Assembly (NCBI RefSeq): GCF_008195825.1
Contig: NZ_CP043329.1
Coordinates: forward strand, 3,472,001 to 3,536,000
Length of the DNA: 64,000 nucleotides
DNA from: Pedobacter aquae
GTDB taxonomy: Bacteria; Bacteroidota; Bacteroidia; Sphingobacteriales; Sphingobacteriaceae
Direction of reading: 5' to 3'
Shown here: piece after piece, positions 17,567-28,263 of the stretch
Layout: each line of letters opens with the position of its first letter
How positions within the stretch are numbered: position 1 is the first letter of the stretch
Translations under genes and position numbers: made by a program
Notes under the pieces: generated by a model
Told to the model about the DNA's origin: nothing
Database searches by the model: none
The model's input: the letters and a program-made list of their open reading frames with translations, nothing else

Positions 17567-17923
17567 ATGGGAAAGGAAGAACAAAAAAATATCCAATTTC
17601 ATAATAAATTAAGTTCTAATTTTAGGGAGATTCATGTGGATGGAGCTTATGGGGGTATTACTCCACGAGGTTATATAAATTTAAACTTCTATGCTGAACG
17701 TTTTCCAATACCCAAATCAACAATTTATAATATCCAAGAAAATAAATTGGCTGAAAAAATCGGTGAAGAAAGTAAAGAGGGTGTAATGCGAGAGTATGAG
17801 TTTGGTATTTATTTAGATTTTGATACAGCAACTGATATATATAATTTTTTAGGTCAGAAAATCAAGGAACTAGAAAGTAAAAGGAAAGAAAATGATACTA
17901 ATATTAGACAGTCCGAACTGTAG
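17567..17923 (+). CDS. Unknown protein, first gene of a MazF-type toxin cassette
   Basis: 118 residues, soluble, charged. It has a Gly-rich segment HVDGAYGGITPRGYINLNFY near residues 24-45 and a C-terminal helix rich in Lys/Glu. I do not recognise the family. It has its own strong promoter, its 3' end overlaps the next gene by 32 bp, and a PemK/MazF toxin follows, so it belongs to that transcript. Its base composition is more AT-rich than the housekeeping genes around it, which fits acquired DNA. Confidence 0.7.
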   Translation: MGKEEQKNIQFHNKLSSNFREIHVDGAYGGITPRGYINLNFYAERFPIPKSTIYNIQENKLAEKIGEESKEGVMREYEFGIYLDFDTATDIYNFLGQKIKELESKRKENDTNIRQSEL

Positions 17924-18122
17924 TACACAACCGATTTATGATTGCGTTAGTAACTTAATAGAATCGAAACCCTCTTATTCCTATGAGGCTAAGACTATTG
18001 ATTATGATTTTCCTACTTCAGAGGAAGCTGATAAGATGTTATTGTCATATGCTCAAATGGCATTTGCTTCAGATTGGGATTTGACGAATGATGAAGAGAA
18101 TGATTACTGGGATACTTTTTGA
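17892..18122 (+). CDS. Small acidic protein, putative antitoxin
   Basis: 76 residues, strongly acidic toward the end (SDWDLTNDEENDYWDTF) and lacking an obvious HTH or AbrB/MazE DNA-binding fold. Position just ahead of the toxin gene (6 bp gap), small size and acidity are what is expected of an antitoxin that neutralises a basic RNase. That role is inferred from context only. Confidence 0.6.
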   Translation: MILILDSPNCSTQPIYDCVSNLIESKPSYSYEAKTIDYDFPTSEEADKMLLSYAQMAFASDWDLTNDEENDYWDTF

Positions 18123-18128
18123 TTAGTT

Positions 18129-18467
18129 ATGTCATATAAACAAGGAGATATTGTTCTTTTACCATTCCCATTTACTAATCAAAGCAATTCAAAAAAAAGA
18201 CCTGCTATGGTTATTTCTGGAAATACTATGAATAATACTTCCGATATAATGGTAGTACAAATAACTAAGGAAATTAGAAACGACGAATATTCGGTTAAAT
18301 TACCAATCTCTGAATTAACGAAACCTTTAAAATTTGTTTCTGAGATAAGATGTCATAAAATCCTAGTCGCAGATAAGTCATTGATAGATAAAAGTCCTAT
18401 TTCAACTGTTAGTGACGAAATTATAAATCAAGTTAAGGATAAGATTAAGGATATTCTGGATAATTAA
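18129..18467 (+). CDS. PemK/MazF family mRNA interferase toxin
   Basis: 112 residues of the MazF fold. The opening strand GDIVLLPFPFTNQSNSKKRP with the following AMVIS is the family hallmark (a Gly-Asp-Ile-Val start, the FPF loop, a basic KKRPA turn). MazF-type toxins cleave mRNA at specific short sequences and stop growth until bound by antitoxin. It is the third gene of a compact three-gene unit, and faces the AraC gene. Confidence 0.87.
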   Translation: MSYKQGDIVLLPFPFTNQSNSKKRPAMVISGNTMNNTSDIMVVQITKEIRNDEYSVKLPISELTKPLKFVSEIRCHKILVADKSLIDKSPISTVSDEIINQVKDKIKDILDN

Positions 18468-22582: not shown

Positions 22583-22613
22583 AGCTGTCTCCATAATGGA
22601 GGCAGCTTTTTTT
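22583..22613 (+). terminator. Rho-independent terminator after pruA
   Basis: Ten-base stem AGCTGTCTCC / GGAGGCAGCT (one G-T pair) with a 5-nt loop, followed by seven T residues, 42 nt past the pruA stop. Confidence 0.85.
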
Positions 22614-22695
22614 ATGAAGTATTTTAATATAAAATTTGAATCTATAGGTTAATCATGGCGGTATCTATCATAAAAAACCTTGCGTTAAATTAATT

Positions 22696-22725
22696 TTGAC
22701 TAATGGTAGAATGATTCTATTTTTG
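22696..22725 (+). promoter_or_regulatory. Promoter of the Fic gene
   Basis: TTG (22696-22698), exactly 19 nt, then TATTTTTG (22718-22725), a full consensus match. Transcription would begin near 22730-22732. This argues for ATG 22748 rather than ATG 22736 as the start codon. Confidence 0.7.
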
Positions 22726-22747
22726 ATACTATCAAATGATACTATCA
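22724..22747. promoter_or_regulatory. Twin palindromic operator at the Fic promoter
   Basis: Two copies of the perfect 11-bp palindrome TGATA-C-TATCA lie at 22724-22734 and 22737-22747, 13 bp centre to centre. They cover the end of the -7 element, the transcription start and the leader up to the start codon. The arrangement is that of an autorepressor site. The Fic protein itself has a C-terminal winged-helix-like region and is the obvious candidate ligand. Confidence 0.6.
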
Positions 22748-23701
22748 ATGACGCCTCCTTACGATATAACTCCAAAAATTTTAAAGCAAATAACCGTTAT
22801 TTCTGAGAAGATAGGTGAAATTAATGCTAATTATCTTCATAAACCATCGCCCCAGCTTCGTAAGCAAAATAGAATAAAAACTATTCATTCTTCATTACAG
22901 ATAGAGGGAAATACCTTAACCGAAGAACAAATAACCGCATTGATAGAGCATAAAAGAATTATAGGTCCGGAAAAGGATGTTTTAGAAGTCTTAAATGCAA
23001 TTAAAGTTTATGATGATTTAAAAAAATACAAATTTAGTGTAGAAAAAAGCTTTTTAAAAGCTCATCAGGAACTAATGGGTGGTTTAATAAAATCTCCGGG
23101 AGATTATAGAAAGCAAGGTGTTGGAATAGTTAAAGGAACACAGGTGACGCATGTAGCACCTCCATTTGAGCAAGTACCACACCTCATGAAGGACTTATTT
23201 GAGTATCTAAAAAAAGATGATGAGTTACCTTTAATCAAAAGTTGCGTATTTCATTATGAAGTAGAGTTTATTCATCCTTTTCTTGATGGAAACGGTAGAA
23301 TGGGAAGATTATGGCAAACATTAATCTTAATGAGTGAATATCCGGTTTTTGAGTTTTTACCATTTGAAACATTAATTAGCCAAACTCAAGATGCATATTA
23401 TCAATCATTAGCTTTAAGTGATAAGTCTGGCAAATCAACTCCTTTTATAGAGTATATGCTAGGCGTTATTCAGCAATCTCTGGAAAACTTATTAAATTAT
23501 AATAACCTCATTTTAAAAGATATAGATCGTTTAGAATACTTCTTGAGCTTAGGAATAAAAGAGTTTAGTAGGAAAGATTACATGAATGTTTTTAAAGATT
23601 TATCATCAGCAACCGCAAGTAGAGATTTAAAAAAGGGAGTTGAATTAAATATGTTTAAGAATATAGGTAATCTAAATAAAACTATATATAGATTAAAATA
23701 G
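22748..23701 (+). CDS. Fic family protein with inhibitory motif (class II)
   Basis: Predicted AMP-transferase acting on a protein hydroxyl. The complete catalytic loop HPFLDGNGR is at residues 176-184. An N-terminal inhibitory helix with the S-x3-E-G motif (Ser49 ... Glu53-Gly54, in SSLQIEGN) marks a class II Fic protein that is held off by its own glutamate. The C-terminal 70 residues ([20 protein letters not shown]) look like a winged helix. ATG 22748 is preferred because ATG 22736 would sit almost on the transcription start. 317 residues. It stands alone with its own operator. Confidence 0.9.
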
Positions 23702-23784: not shown

Positions 23785-23814
23785 TTGATACATTCTTTAT
23801 TAATCGTAATATTG
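23785..23814 (+). promoter_or_regulatory. Promoter of the ars operon
   Basis: TTG (23785-23787), exactly 19 nt, then TAATATTG (23807-23814), one mismatch from TAnnTTTG. The leader to ATG 23827 would be very short. Confidence 0.55.
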
Positions 23815-23820
23815 CAATAT
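23809..23820. promoter_or_regulatory. Candidate ArsR operator
   Basis: ATATTGCAATAT is a perfect 12-bp palindrome lying over the -7 element and the transcription start, six bases before the arsR start codon. This is the place expected for repression by an ArsR/SmtB protein. Confidence 0.55.
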
Positions 23821-23826
23821 ATAGAT

Positions 23827-24156
23827 ATGGGAATTACAAGAACAGAAATATTTACAGATGAGCAAAACCAATTGGCTACACTTCTGAAAGCCTTGGCGCA
23901 TCCGGCTCGTATTGCCATTTTACAGCGTATTATGGTGGCTAATACTTGTATTTGTGGAGATTTGGTGGGCGAATTAGGCTTGGCACAAGCTACCATATCG
24001 CAGCATTTAAAAGAATTAAAAAATGCGGGTTTAATACAAGGAACCATCGATGGTGTAAGCGTTTGTTATTGTATTCATCCAGAAAACTGGAAAAAATTAG
24101 AACAGCATTTAAATGGCTTTTTAAAAGAATTTAAAGGCCCTGTAAGCTGTTGCTAA
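23827..24156 (+). CDS. ArsR/SmtB family metalloregulator
   Basis: Winged-helix repressor of 109 residues that should leave DNA on binding As(III). The helix containing NTCICGDLV supplies a Cys-x-Cys pair as in arsenic-sensing ArsR. The recognition helix is [20 protein letters not shown], and the protein ends in Cys-Cys. ATG 23827 (MGITRTEIF) is used; an upstream in-frame TTG at 23785 is part of the promoter. It is first in an operon with a DUF6428-like gene, arsC and an ACR3 pump, which supports arsenic as inducer. Confidence 0.92.
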
Positions 24157-24184
24157 AATGGATTAATCATTAAATCATAATATT

Positions 24185-24751
24185 ATGAATATTTCAGAAA
24201 TGATGACTTGGAACGAGTTTAGGACTGCTCTAGTAGCGCATCCTTTATTAGATTTACAATTTCAATATGCTGAGGATAAATGGGTTTCGCCTTCTTATCA
24301 TATCACAGAATTGAAGCATGCACCTATCACTTCTGTAGATTGTGGTGGTGTGGTTAACAAATGGACAGAAATTATCCTCCAGCTTTGGGTGCCAGAGAAT
24401 CAGCAACAGCTTAAATCTATGAAGGTTAGAAAAGCTATTTCGATTATAGAATTGGTAGAAAAAGCTTTAAGTATTGAACCCAATGCGGTTGTAAAAGTAG
24501 AATTTGGTAACCAAGAATATGATACCAGACAGCTATTACCAAAAGCTTTTATCAAAGATGAGGAGAATTTCATCATCGATTTAAGACCCGATGTTACCCA
24601 ATGTAAAGCTATAGAAAGAGGTGGAAGTTGTGGTACTACAGCAACCGGTGAAGAGTGCTGTACACCATCGGCTGAAAAGCCAAAAATTCAATTAAAAAAC
24701 TTAGTTACACAAGAAGGTAGCAGCTGCGAACCTGGTTCTGGATGTTGTTAA
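24185..24751 (+). CDS. DUF6428-like protein of the arsenic operon
   Basis: 188 residues. The first 130 form a compact alpha/beta region (LKHAPITSVDCGG, IILQLWVPENQQQLKSMKV). The tail is Cys-rich, with C-x-tract segments SCGTTATGEECC and GSSCEPGSGCC, giving eight or more cysteines suited to binding a soft metal(loid). It sits between arsR and arsC with 25-30 bp gaps. Proteins of this kind are regularly found in Bacteroidota ars operons, but their biochemistry is, as far as I know, not established. A chaperone or As(III)-buffer role is an inference. Confidence 0.8.
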   Translation: MNISEMMTWNEFRTALVAHPLLDLQFQYAEDKWVSPSYHITELKHAPITSVDCGGVVNKWTEIILQLWVPENQQQLKSMKVRKAISIIELVEKALSIEPNAVVKVEFGNQEYDTRQLLPKAFIKDEENFIIDLRPDVTQCKAIERGGSCGTTATGEECCTPSAEKPKIQLKNLVTQEGSSCEPGSGCC

Positions 24752-24775
24752 TTATCATTAATTTAAATAGTATAA

Positions 24776-25195
24776 ATGAATATTTTAATTTTATGTACGG
24801 GCAATAGTTGCAGAAGCCAAATTGCTGAAGGTTATTTAAAGCATTTTGCAAAAGAGCATGCAAACGTTTATAGTGCTGGGATAGAAACCCATGGCGTTAA
24901 CCCAAGGGCTATTGCTACCATGCAAGAAGATGGTATAGATATTTCTAAGCATACTTCTAACCATGTGGATGAATACACTAGCATAGATTTTGATTATATG
25001 ATAACTGTGTGTGACCATGCAAAAGAAAATTGTCCGTATTTTCCTACACAGGCTCAGAAATTTCATTACAACTTTCCAGACCCAGCCAAAGCACAAGGTA
25101 CAGAAGAAGAAATTATGGCTCAGTTTAGAGAAGTAAGAGAAATGATTAAAAATTACGCACAAAATTTTGTAGCTACCTACGTTAAAAAAGATTAA
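24776..25195 (+). CDS. arsC: Arsenate reductase, thioredoxin-coupled (low-MW phosphatase fold)
   Basis: Reduces arsenate to arsenite in the cytosol. The P-loop CTGNSCRS gives Cys7 and Arg13. Cys79 and Cys86 (VCDHAKENC) complete the three-cysteine relay, with the same 72 and 7 residue spacing as Staphylococcus pI258 ArsC (Cys10, Cys82, Cys89). 139 residues. It is followed 3 bp later by the ACR3 pump gene. Confidence 0.93.
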   Translation: MNILILCTGNSCRSQIAEGYLKHFAKEHANVYSAGIETHGVNPRAIATMQEDGIDISKHTSNHVDEYTSIDFDYMITVCDHAKENCPYFPTQAQKFHYNFPDPAKAQGTEEEIMAQFREVREMIKNYAQNFVATYVKKD

Positions 25196-25198
25196 GAT

Positions 25199-26269
25199 AT
25201 GTCGGCAAATAACTGCGCTCCGGCGGTAGAGCGAATAAAATTAGGTTTTTTAGATCGTAACTTAACCTTATGGATTTTTATGGCCATGATACTGGGCGTA
25301 GCCTTGGGTTATTTTCTCCCTTCGTCTTCTACTTTTATCAATTCTTTTTCTAGCGGAACAACCAACATACCTTTAGCCATAGGTTTAATTTTAATGATGT
25401 ACCCGCCATTGGCAAAAGTAAAATATGAAAACATGGGCGAGGTATTTAAAAACACGAAAGTGTTAAGCGCTTCGCTTATTCTAAATTGGGTTATTGGCCC
25501 TATTTTGATGTTTGTTTTGGCAATTACTTTTTTGGCTAACTACCCAGAATATATGATTGGCTTAATTTTAATTGGCTTAGCCCGATGTATTGCCATGGTA
25601 GTAGTTTGGAATGAGCTGGCCGAAGGAAACCGGGAATACGCAGCAGGTTTAATTGCCTTAAACAGTATTTTTCAAGTGCTTTTATATAGCGTTTATGCTT
25701 ATATTTTCATTACCGTTTTACCTCCCTATTTTGGCTTAAGCAGTTTAGCTGTTGATATTAGCATGAGCCAAATTGCCGAGAGTGTTTTGATCTATTTAGG
25801 GATTCCCTTTTTAATGGGCATAATAAGCAGGTACAGCCTGATAAAATTAAAAGGCGAAACGTGGTTTCAAGAAAAATTTGTGCCTTTTATATCGCCCATT
25901 ACCTTAATTGCCTTACTTTTTACCATTGTAGTGATGTTTAGCCTAAAAGGTAAATTGATGATGCAAATCCCTTTAGATGTGGTTAGAATTGCCATTCCCT
26001 TACTCATTTACTTTGTGCTGATGTTTATCCTGAGTTTTTATGTAGGTAAATATTTTGGCGCCGATTATTCAAAATCAACATCTATAGCCTTTACAGCTAC
26101 CGGAAATAATTTTGAATTGGCTATAGCCGTAGCTATAGGTGTTTTTGGTATTAACTCTGGACAGGCTTTCGCCGGAGTTATTGGTCCTTTAGTAGAAGTA
26201 CCCGCTTTAATAGCTTTGGTAAATTTAGCCTTTTGGTTTAGAAAGAAGTATTATCCTGTGGGTACTTGA
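25199..26269 (+). CDS. arsB: ACR3 family arsenite efflux transporter
   Basis: 356-residue inner-membrane antiporter with about ten TM helices that exports As(III) produced by ArsC. The conserved helix with the essential cysteine is visible ([18 protein letters not shown]), as is the second conserved region [23 protein letters not shown]3 is structurally related to the BASS transporters, but these motifs separate it from them. Last gene of the ars operon; a terminator hairpin follows. Confidence 0.95.
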
Positions 26270-27632: not shown

Positions 27633-27929
27633 ATGCTTACAAAAGATAAAATTTTTTCTGTTCTAAAGGGTAATAAAGCCCAATTGCAAGAATTTGGTGT
27701 TTGTAGCATAGGCTTATTTGGTTCGTATTTAAGAAATGAACAGTCTTTAAAAAGTGATATTGATTTATTAATTGATTTTGCTCCTGAAAAAGAGAATTTT
27801 GATAATTATATGGCGGCATATGATTTTTTTGAAAGACTTTTTACAGGGGAAAAGGTTGAGATTGTTACTAAAAAAGGATTGAGTAGGCATATTGGTCCAA
27901 AAATTTTGAACGAAGTACAATATGTCTAA
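27633..27929 (+). CDS. mntA: MNT-domain nucleotidyltransferase antitoxin
   Basis: 98 residues of the minimal nucleotidyltransferase fold. The active-site motif GS-x10-D-x-D is complete: Gly30, Ser31, Asp42, Asp44. In studied pairs MntA neutralises the HEPN toxin HepT by adding AMP groups to its catalytic-site tyrosine. Its last 8 bp overlap the hepT gene. Confidence 0.9.
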   Translation: MLTKDKIFSVLKGNKAQLQEFGVCSIGLFGSYLRNEQSLKSDIDLLIDFAPEKENFDNYMAAYDFFERLFTGEKVEIVTKKGLSRHIGPKILNEVQYV

Positions 27930-28263
27930 AGATGTAAATGAATATTTAAGGCATATTCAAGATGAATGTGACTATTTAATATCTGTAATTGTAAATATTT
28001 CACTAGATGATTTTTTAGAGGATGAGACTTTAAAAAGAGCTACCGTAAGAAGTCTAGAAATTATTGGCGAAGCATCAAAGAAAATTCCTTCAACATATAA
28101 AGATACTTGGTCTTTTATTGAGTGGCGAAGTATGGCTGGAATGAGAGATCGACTTATACATGATTATATAGGCGTAAACTATATCATAGTTTGGGATGTA
28201 CTTCAAACAAAAATTCCAGTTCTTAAAAAAGACATCTCTAAGATATTAGAAAGAAAAAACTAA
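27922..28263 (+). CDS. hepT: HEPN-domain RNase toxin
   Basis: 113 residues, all-helical HEPN (DUF86) protein. The RNase/AMPylation motif R-x4-H-x-Y is intact as Arg75, His80, Tyr82 (RDRLIHDY). Paired with mntA in the standard antitoxin-first order and overlapping it. Its stop overlaps the moaE stop by 4 bp in convergent orientation, so the module sits between two groups of Mo-cofactor genes. Confidence 0.9.
   Translation: MSKDVNEYLRHIQDECDYLISVIVNISLDDFLEDETLKRATVRSLEIIGEASKKIPSTYKDTWSFIEWRSMAGMRDRLIHDYIGVNYIIVWDVLQTKIPVLKKDISKILERKN

Follow-up and report, generated by a model that had tools for sequence, protein, structure and literature searches.

What controls a solitary fic gene that has no partner gene beside it, and which protein would recognize the two palindromes lying directly in front of it? 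The 64-kb stretch of Pedobacter aquae DNA analyzed here (the window) contains such a gene, and the reading favored below, held at a probability of roughly 0.8 from sequence evidence, is that the twin palindrome is an operator through which Fic, the product of a solitary, horizontally moving gene, represses its own promoter.

Twin palindrome and promoter at the fic start

The palindrome TGATACTATCA occurs exactly at positions 22724 to 22734 and again at 22737 to 22747, confirming the two perfect palindromes reported upstream of fic in the first-pass annotation; the 13 bp given there as their separation is correct as a start-to-start distance, but the gap between them is 2 bp. Each dyad is an odd palindrome, TGATA-C-TATCA, with an unpaired center base. 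The symmetry of dyad 1 reaches beyond its core to TTTGATACTATCAAA (22722 to 22736) and covers the −7 box and the predicted transcription start, while dyad 2 (TGATACTATCA, 22737 to 22747) abuts the start codon on its 5′ side; neither dyad is assigned to a strand. Half-sites within the twin are spaced 6, 7, and 6 bp apart, which is unusual for one dimer. Allowing up to one mismatch, the dyad matched 8 times in the window versus 1.03 expected, and no shuffled sequence reached 8.

The palindromes lie on a perfect promoter of the Bacteroidota type, consisting of a −33 element TTTG (22695 to 22698, plus strand), a 19-bp spacer, and a −7 element TATTTTTG (22718 to 22725, plus strand) that fits TAnnTTTG and whose TTTG forms the left edge of dyad 1. 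The window has this combination of promoter and dyad a single time, against 0 expected. A consensus promoter had been proposed at this place before; the promoter is present, but its type is that of Bacteroidota and not sigma-70. Because TAnnTTTG occupies −12 to −5 in mapped flavobacterial promoters (PMC9723704), fic transcription is predicted to start near 22730, therefore placing dyad 1 at roughly −6 to +5, dyad 2 at roughly +8 to +18, and giving a predicted leader of about 18 nt. A terminator-like hairpin with a T tail (22583 to 22607, plus strand) follows the upstream P5C-dehydrogenase gene and sets fic apart from it.

Two in-frame ATG codons, at 22736 and 22748, could serve as the fic start, the first of them inside the operator. 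ATG 22748 is the most likely start, since nearly all homologues keep the sequence M-x-P-P-Y and in many of them the operator is followed by a stop codon or by another spacing; ATG 22736 is disfavored on the same grounds. The −7 box, the twin operator, and the start codon overlap.

Other genes in the window were noted in passing. Directly downstream of fic lies an arsenic-resistance-like cluster (23785 to 26269) with an arsR-type regulator, a small protein, an arsenate-reductase-like protein, and a transporter, the last three assigned from reading the sequence only. A PemK/MazF-like toxin gene (18129 to 18467) preceded by a 76-amino-acid small open reading frame likely forms a toxin-antitoxin pair (17892 to 18467), and two overlapping small genes (27633 to 28263), again judged by eye from their sequences, resemble an MntA nucleotidyltransferase and HepT HEPN toxin-antitoxin pair.

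The Fic protein and its C-terminal domain

The fic gene (22748 to 23701, plus strand) encodes a 317-amino-acid class II Fic AMP-transferase, with a Pfam Fic match at an E value of 5.7e-21; AMPylation activity and its restraint by a glutamate are predicted. The active-site motif HPFx(D/E)GNGRxxR is found at residues 176 to 187, and the inhibitory motif (S/T)xxxE(G/N) is found as S49-L-Q-I-E53-G54 (S-x3-E53-G), in a helix that precedes the Fic core in the structural model. Across 62 aligned homologues, from which one sequence with an internal stop (L061) was excluded, E53, G54, N55, H176, P177, F178, D180, G181, N182, G183, R184, and G186 were invariant, and the M and last R of the active site were kept at 90% or more. 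The closest relative of the protein is from Pedobacter glucosidilyticus (96%). An AlphaFold model (pLDDT 88.5) placed PDB 4rgl as the nearest structure, followed by FICD, SoFic, and CbFic2.

Residues 258 to 317 (23519 to 23698, plus strand) form a C-terminal winged-helix domain that contains the recognition region. When residues 251 to 317 were modeled alone, they folded as a winged helix in the order helix-helix-helix-strand-strand; Foldseek matched this tail to ArsR, IclR, MarR, and Fur with TM scores of about 0.7 and no E value below 0.001, which is support at the level of fold only. Within the tail, S-x2-T-A-S-R-D and G307 were invariant across homologues. The winged-helix-like C terminus and the inhibitory glutamate that the gene had initially been credited with are thus both borne out, the former by its fold and the latter by its invariance.

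Occurrence of the twin palindrome across genomes

Upstream regions of 97 distinct homologous loci, encoding proteins 53 to 100% identical, were compared. The pattern TGATANTATCA-NN-TGATANTATCA was present at the gene start in 97 of 97, so the palindromes clearly pass the check originally suggested, under which absence from close homologues would have spoken against autorepression by Fic. Counted over 20 positions, 65 twins had 0 mismatches, 24 had one, 6 had two, and 2 had three; the best match among 1,940 shuffled upstream regions had 5. Per position, information content was 1.58 bits over the twin and 0.03 bits from −60 to −40, and an exact TAnnTTTG ended on twin base 2 in 92 of 97 homologues. 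The center base was free to vary: dyad 1 had G, C, or A there, and dyad 2 had G, C, or T. The twin was also found in metagenome-assembled genomes of Ignavibacteriota and Neomarinimicrobiota (L114 and L106) and on the Bergeyella plasmid pQD2021 (L169), where the fic gene is broken. A search of viral contigs returned no match to the twin pattern, and so gave no sign of a phage-borne source.

The twin ended between 1 bp inside the start codon and 14 bp before it, with one of the 97 loci excepted. This variable distance bears on the idea of control at the RNA level, in which the start codon would be masked by a hairpin that the repeats form in the mRNA. Positions 22720 to 22790 could fold as RNA (−6.9 kcal/mol, z −2.2), but the predicted transcript begins near 22730, within dyad 1, and a transcript from 22732 is unfolded (−0.5 kcal/mol, z +1.0). 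The leader hairpin was rejected because the leader from the predicted start has no fold, and RNA-level control is considered very unlikely.

Among 399 genomes of the same family, Sphingobacteriaceae, fic was patchy, being present in only 27. All 27 carriers had the twin, 22 of them exactly and 5 with 1 or 2 mismatches. The fic tree mixed families, with the gene of G009, a genome of the window's genus, clustering with Fluviicola (100/98) and other family members clustering with Flavobacterium, and a search for common neighbors around the 97 loci found no neighboring gene family at more than 4 of them. Together, the patchiness, the mixed tree, and the lack of a common neighbor imply that the operator moved with fic alone. 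These patterns weigh on the rival reading that some other repressor, encoded on the chromosome, controls fic with the twin as its operator: with families mixed and no recurring neighbor, a separately encoded regulator would need to exist in every recipient, yet fic has moved between families with its site unchanged.

A further point against a separate repressor is that the site follows the winged helix. In a phylum-wide sample of Bacteroidota, 12 of 12 homologues with the tail type found in the window carried the twin (0 to 4 mismatches, a range that also covers the Bergeyella plasmid copy; one of the 12 is a gene fragment), whereas the twin was present in 0 of 9 proteins that combined another tail with a 40 to 47% identical Fic core (8 to 10 mismatches). 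Eight additional homologues with other tails, from plasmids and one phage-derived contig, were also without the twin (7 to 11 mismatches), several of them encoded in hsdM-hsdS-fic-hsdR operons. In total, the twin occurred in 0 of 17 homologues with a 40 to 55% identical Fic core but a different tail. Using the winged helix alone as a query against 385 genomes, all strong matches belonged to the same Fic subfamily or its pseudogenes and had the twin with 0 to 4 mismatches, while the weak matches (L244 to L248) were without it. These counts are suggestive of a twin that goes with one type of C-terminal winged helix, in a correlation that tracks phylogeny and is not fully independent. No comparable palindromes were found at paralogues in the genus that join Fic to other winged helices, indicating that autorepression is not a general trait of such proteins.

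Two groups of relatives deserve mention in their own right. One genome of genus g37 (G461; L189, L200, and L249) carries fic twice along with a pseudogene of it, and the operators of all three have drifted; the tail reads TATRD instead of TASRD, a slight change in the recognition helix, and the operator has 4 mismatches. Co-drift of recognition helix and operator is possible in this genome, and is offered as a lead only. Separately, four sister Fic proteins with another winged helix (L171, L172, L174, and L175) are encoded within type I restriction-modification operons, next to hsdS and before hsdR, without the operator.

The twin was not confined to genomes with an intact fic. Exact twins were found in 37 of the 399 genomes, and a reversed control pattern was found in none; 15 of the 399 had an exact twin without a full fic gene. 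In seven of these, N-terminal fic codons remain at the twin (G003, G102, G243, G307, G312, G345, and G349), including a scar of promoter, twin, and ATGAAGC in G003 that is flanked by the same gene pair as in the window. Three more (G177, G282, and G327) have the twin at a locus where sister genomes hold fic or its remnants, and five (G127, G258, G283, G306, and G308) have no trace of fic. Two solo twins are embedded in longer symmetry: G249 has a second exact twin in an intergenic perfect palindrome of over 50 bp (L168, about 1485 to 1540), and in G283 the exact twin sits inside a longer perfect inverted repeat between genes (L146, about 1497 to 1528), with no fic gene at either site.

Persistence of twins where fic was lost (L157, L162, L166, and L201), together with the patchiness of the gene, would suit repeats that are not an operator but the place where a mobile fic cassette integrates or recombines. 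No copy is present at the 3′ end of fic in the window, however, the repeats keep a constant place on the −7 box in 92 of 97 loci, and several losses leave N-terminal fic codons in a manner resembling ordinary deletion, which leaves this explanation scarcely credible. The five twins without any fic trace also favor a separate repressor, as does the fact that binding of Fic to the twin is itself a prediction. Against it stand the sites' absence where the Fic core is kept with a different winged helix, the lack of a shared neighbor, and the genome of the window, which has no intact twin other than that at fic; a repressor encoded elsewhere is accordingly judged unlikely.

The search of the window's genome extended to single dyads, which numbered 18 versus 6 for the control and mostly lay inside open reading frames or had an A/T center. 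Apart from two partial copies in decay, a C/G center was seen in just one single dyad, which lies inside an open reading frame. The two partial copies consist of one and a half dyads (TGATACTATCAAATGATA), with the second dyad decayed and no open reading frame directly behind; both adjoin restriction-modification genes and lie within or alongside an intergenic repeat element. No second regulated gene was evident from dyad copies in this genome. Promoter-like sequence with 1.5 dyads was seen in the repeated intergenic element at L002 (1500 to 1520) and L003 (1500 to 1525; G000:C1:1016203 and 1072929) and at L231 in G004, and these sites look like decayed fic promoters copied along with the repeat.

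Relation to known Fic regulators and biological meaning

With autorepression as the preferred reading, the layout suggests how it could work. Two Fic dimers would bind the four TGATA half-sites via their C-terminal winged helices, a stoichiometry that is a guess, and bound Fic would sterically exclude RNA polymerase from the −7 box and the start site, keeping a potentially toxic enzyme scarce. Release might follow when more Fic is ATP bound or AMPylated, or as Fic is diluted upon arrival of the gene in a new cell. The first-pass proposal that Fic directly represses its own gene draws good support from the inheritance of operator and winged helix together, though such repression is inferred; relief through its own modification state, the other part of that proposal, is no more than thinkable.

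Self-repression by a Fic enzyme is already known from CccR of Yersinia pseudotuberculosis, a class II Fic protein with a C-terminal helix-turn-helix domain that represses its own promoter at palindromes via this domain (PMC9755527). The window Fic is of another subfamily, and its compact operator differs as well: CccR recognizes AGATAATCAT-N26-ATGATAATCT, versus TGATANTATCA-N2-TGATANTATCA here. CccR is also a type VI secreted effector (PMC9755527). The N terminus of CccR is DUF4172 (PMC10628234), whereas Pfam at an E value of 0.001 finds only Fic in the window protein.

Other relatives resemble the window Fic in part. CbFic2 of Coxiella burnetii (PDB 8cil), also a class II Fic with a winged helix, has been shown to bind DNA, on which it dimerizes and changes activity (PMC10628234), but it targets a host histone, an operator at its own promoter is unreported (PMC10628234), and it is only 17 to 19% identical to the window Fic over the fold match. 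The anti-phage AMP-transferase Sofic (SoFic; PDB 3eqx and 3zcn) likewise joins Fic to a C-terminal domain, which shifts on ATP binding, and is toxic on leaky expression; it differs in that its downstream antitoxin AS1 controls it in Escherichia coli H397 (PMC12249575). The PADLOC SoFic profile PDLC03963, which has no stated cutoff, matched residues 7 to 268 only (158 bits, E value 1e-46), and the SoFic equivalog NCBIfam NF046030 scored 57.4 bits versus a curated cutoff of 550, placing the window Fic outside that family. The closest solved structure, Dde_2494 of Desulfovibrio desulfuricans G20 (PDB 4rgl; phmmer E value 1.6e-77, Z 36.2, 42% identity), matches in sequence until near the winged-helix start, where the tails diverge. 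The Fic proteins of hsdM-hsdS-fic-hsdR operons share the core at 40 to 55% identity but have a different winged helix and no twin operator. Literature searches found no functional paper on Dde_2494 and none on regulation of this Fic subfamily.

Because CccR autorepresses, CbFic2 changes activity on DNA, and ATP moves the Sofic C-terminal domain, it is thinkable by analogy that enzyme state and repression are coupled. A bolder version, rather unlikely at present, would make the gene a one-gene mobile stress or anti-phage module in which Fic acts as its own promoter antitoxin: DNA-bound dimers would be inactive, and departure of Fic from the operator or a change in its ATP or AMP state would both activate the enzyme and raise its expression.

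Autorepressing Fic proteins are known as a kind; what is new is a conserved Fic subfamily with its own compact operator. A precise operator is now available for a large orphan Fic subfamily, in which site and gene travel as a unit of about 1 kb. This suggests that a Fic enzyme lacking a partner antitoxin can bring along its own brake on transcription, and if autorepression is true, the single case of CccR would grow into a conserved class found in Bacteroidota and in a few neighboring phyla.
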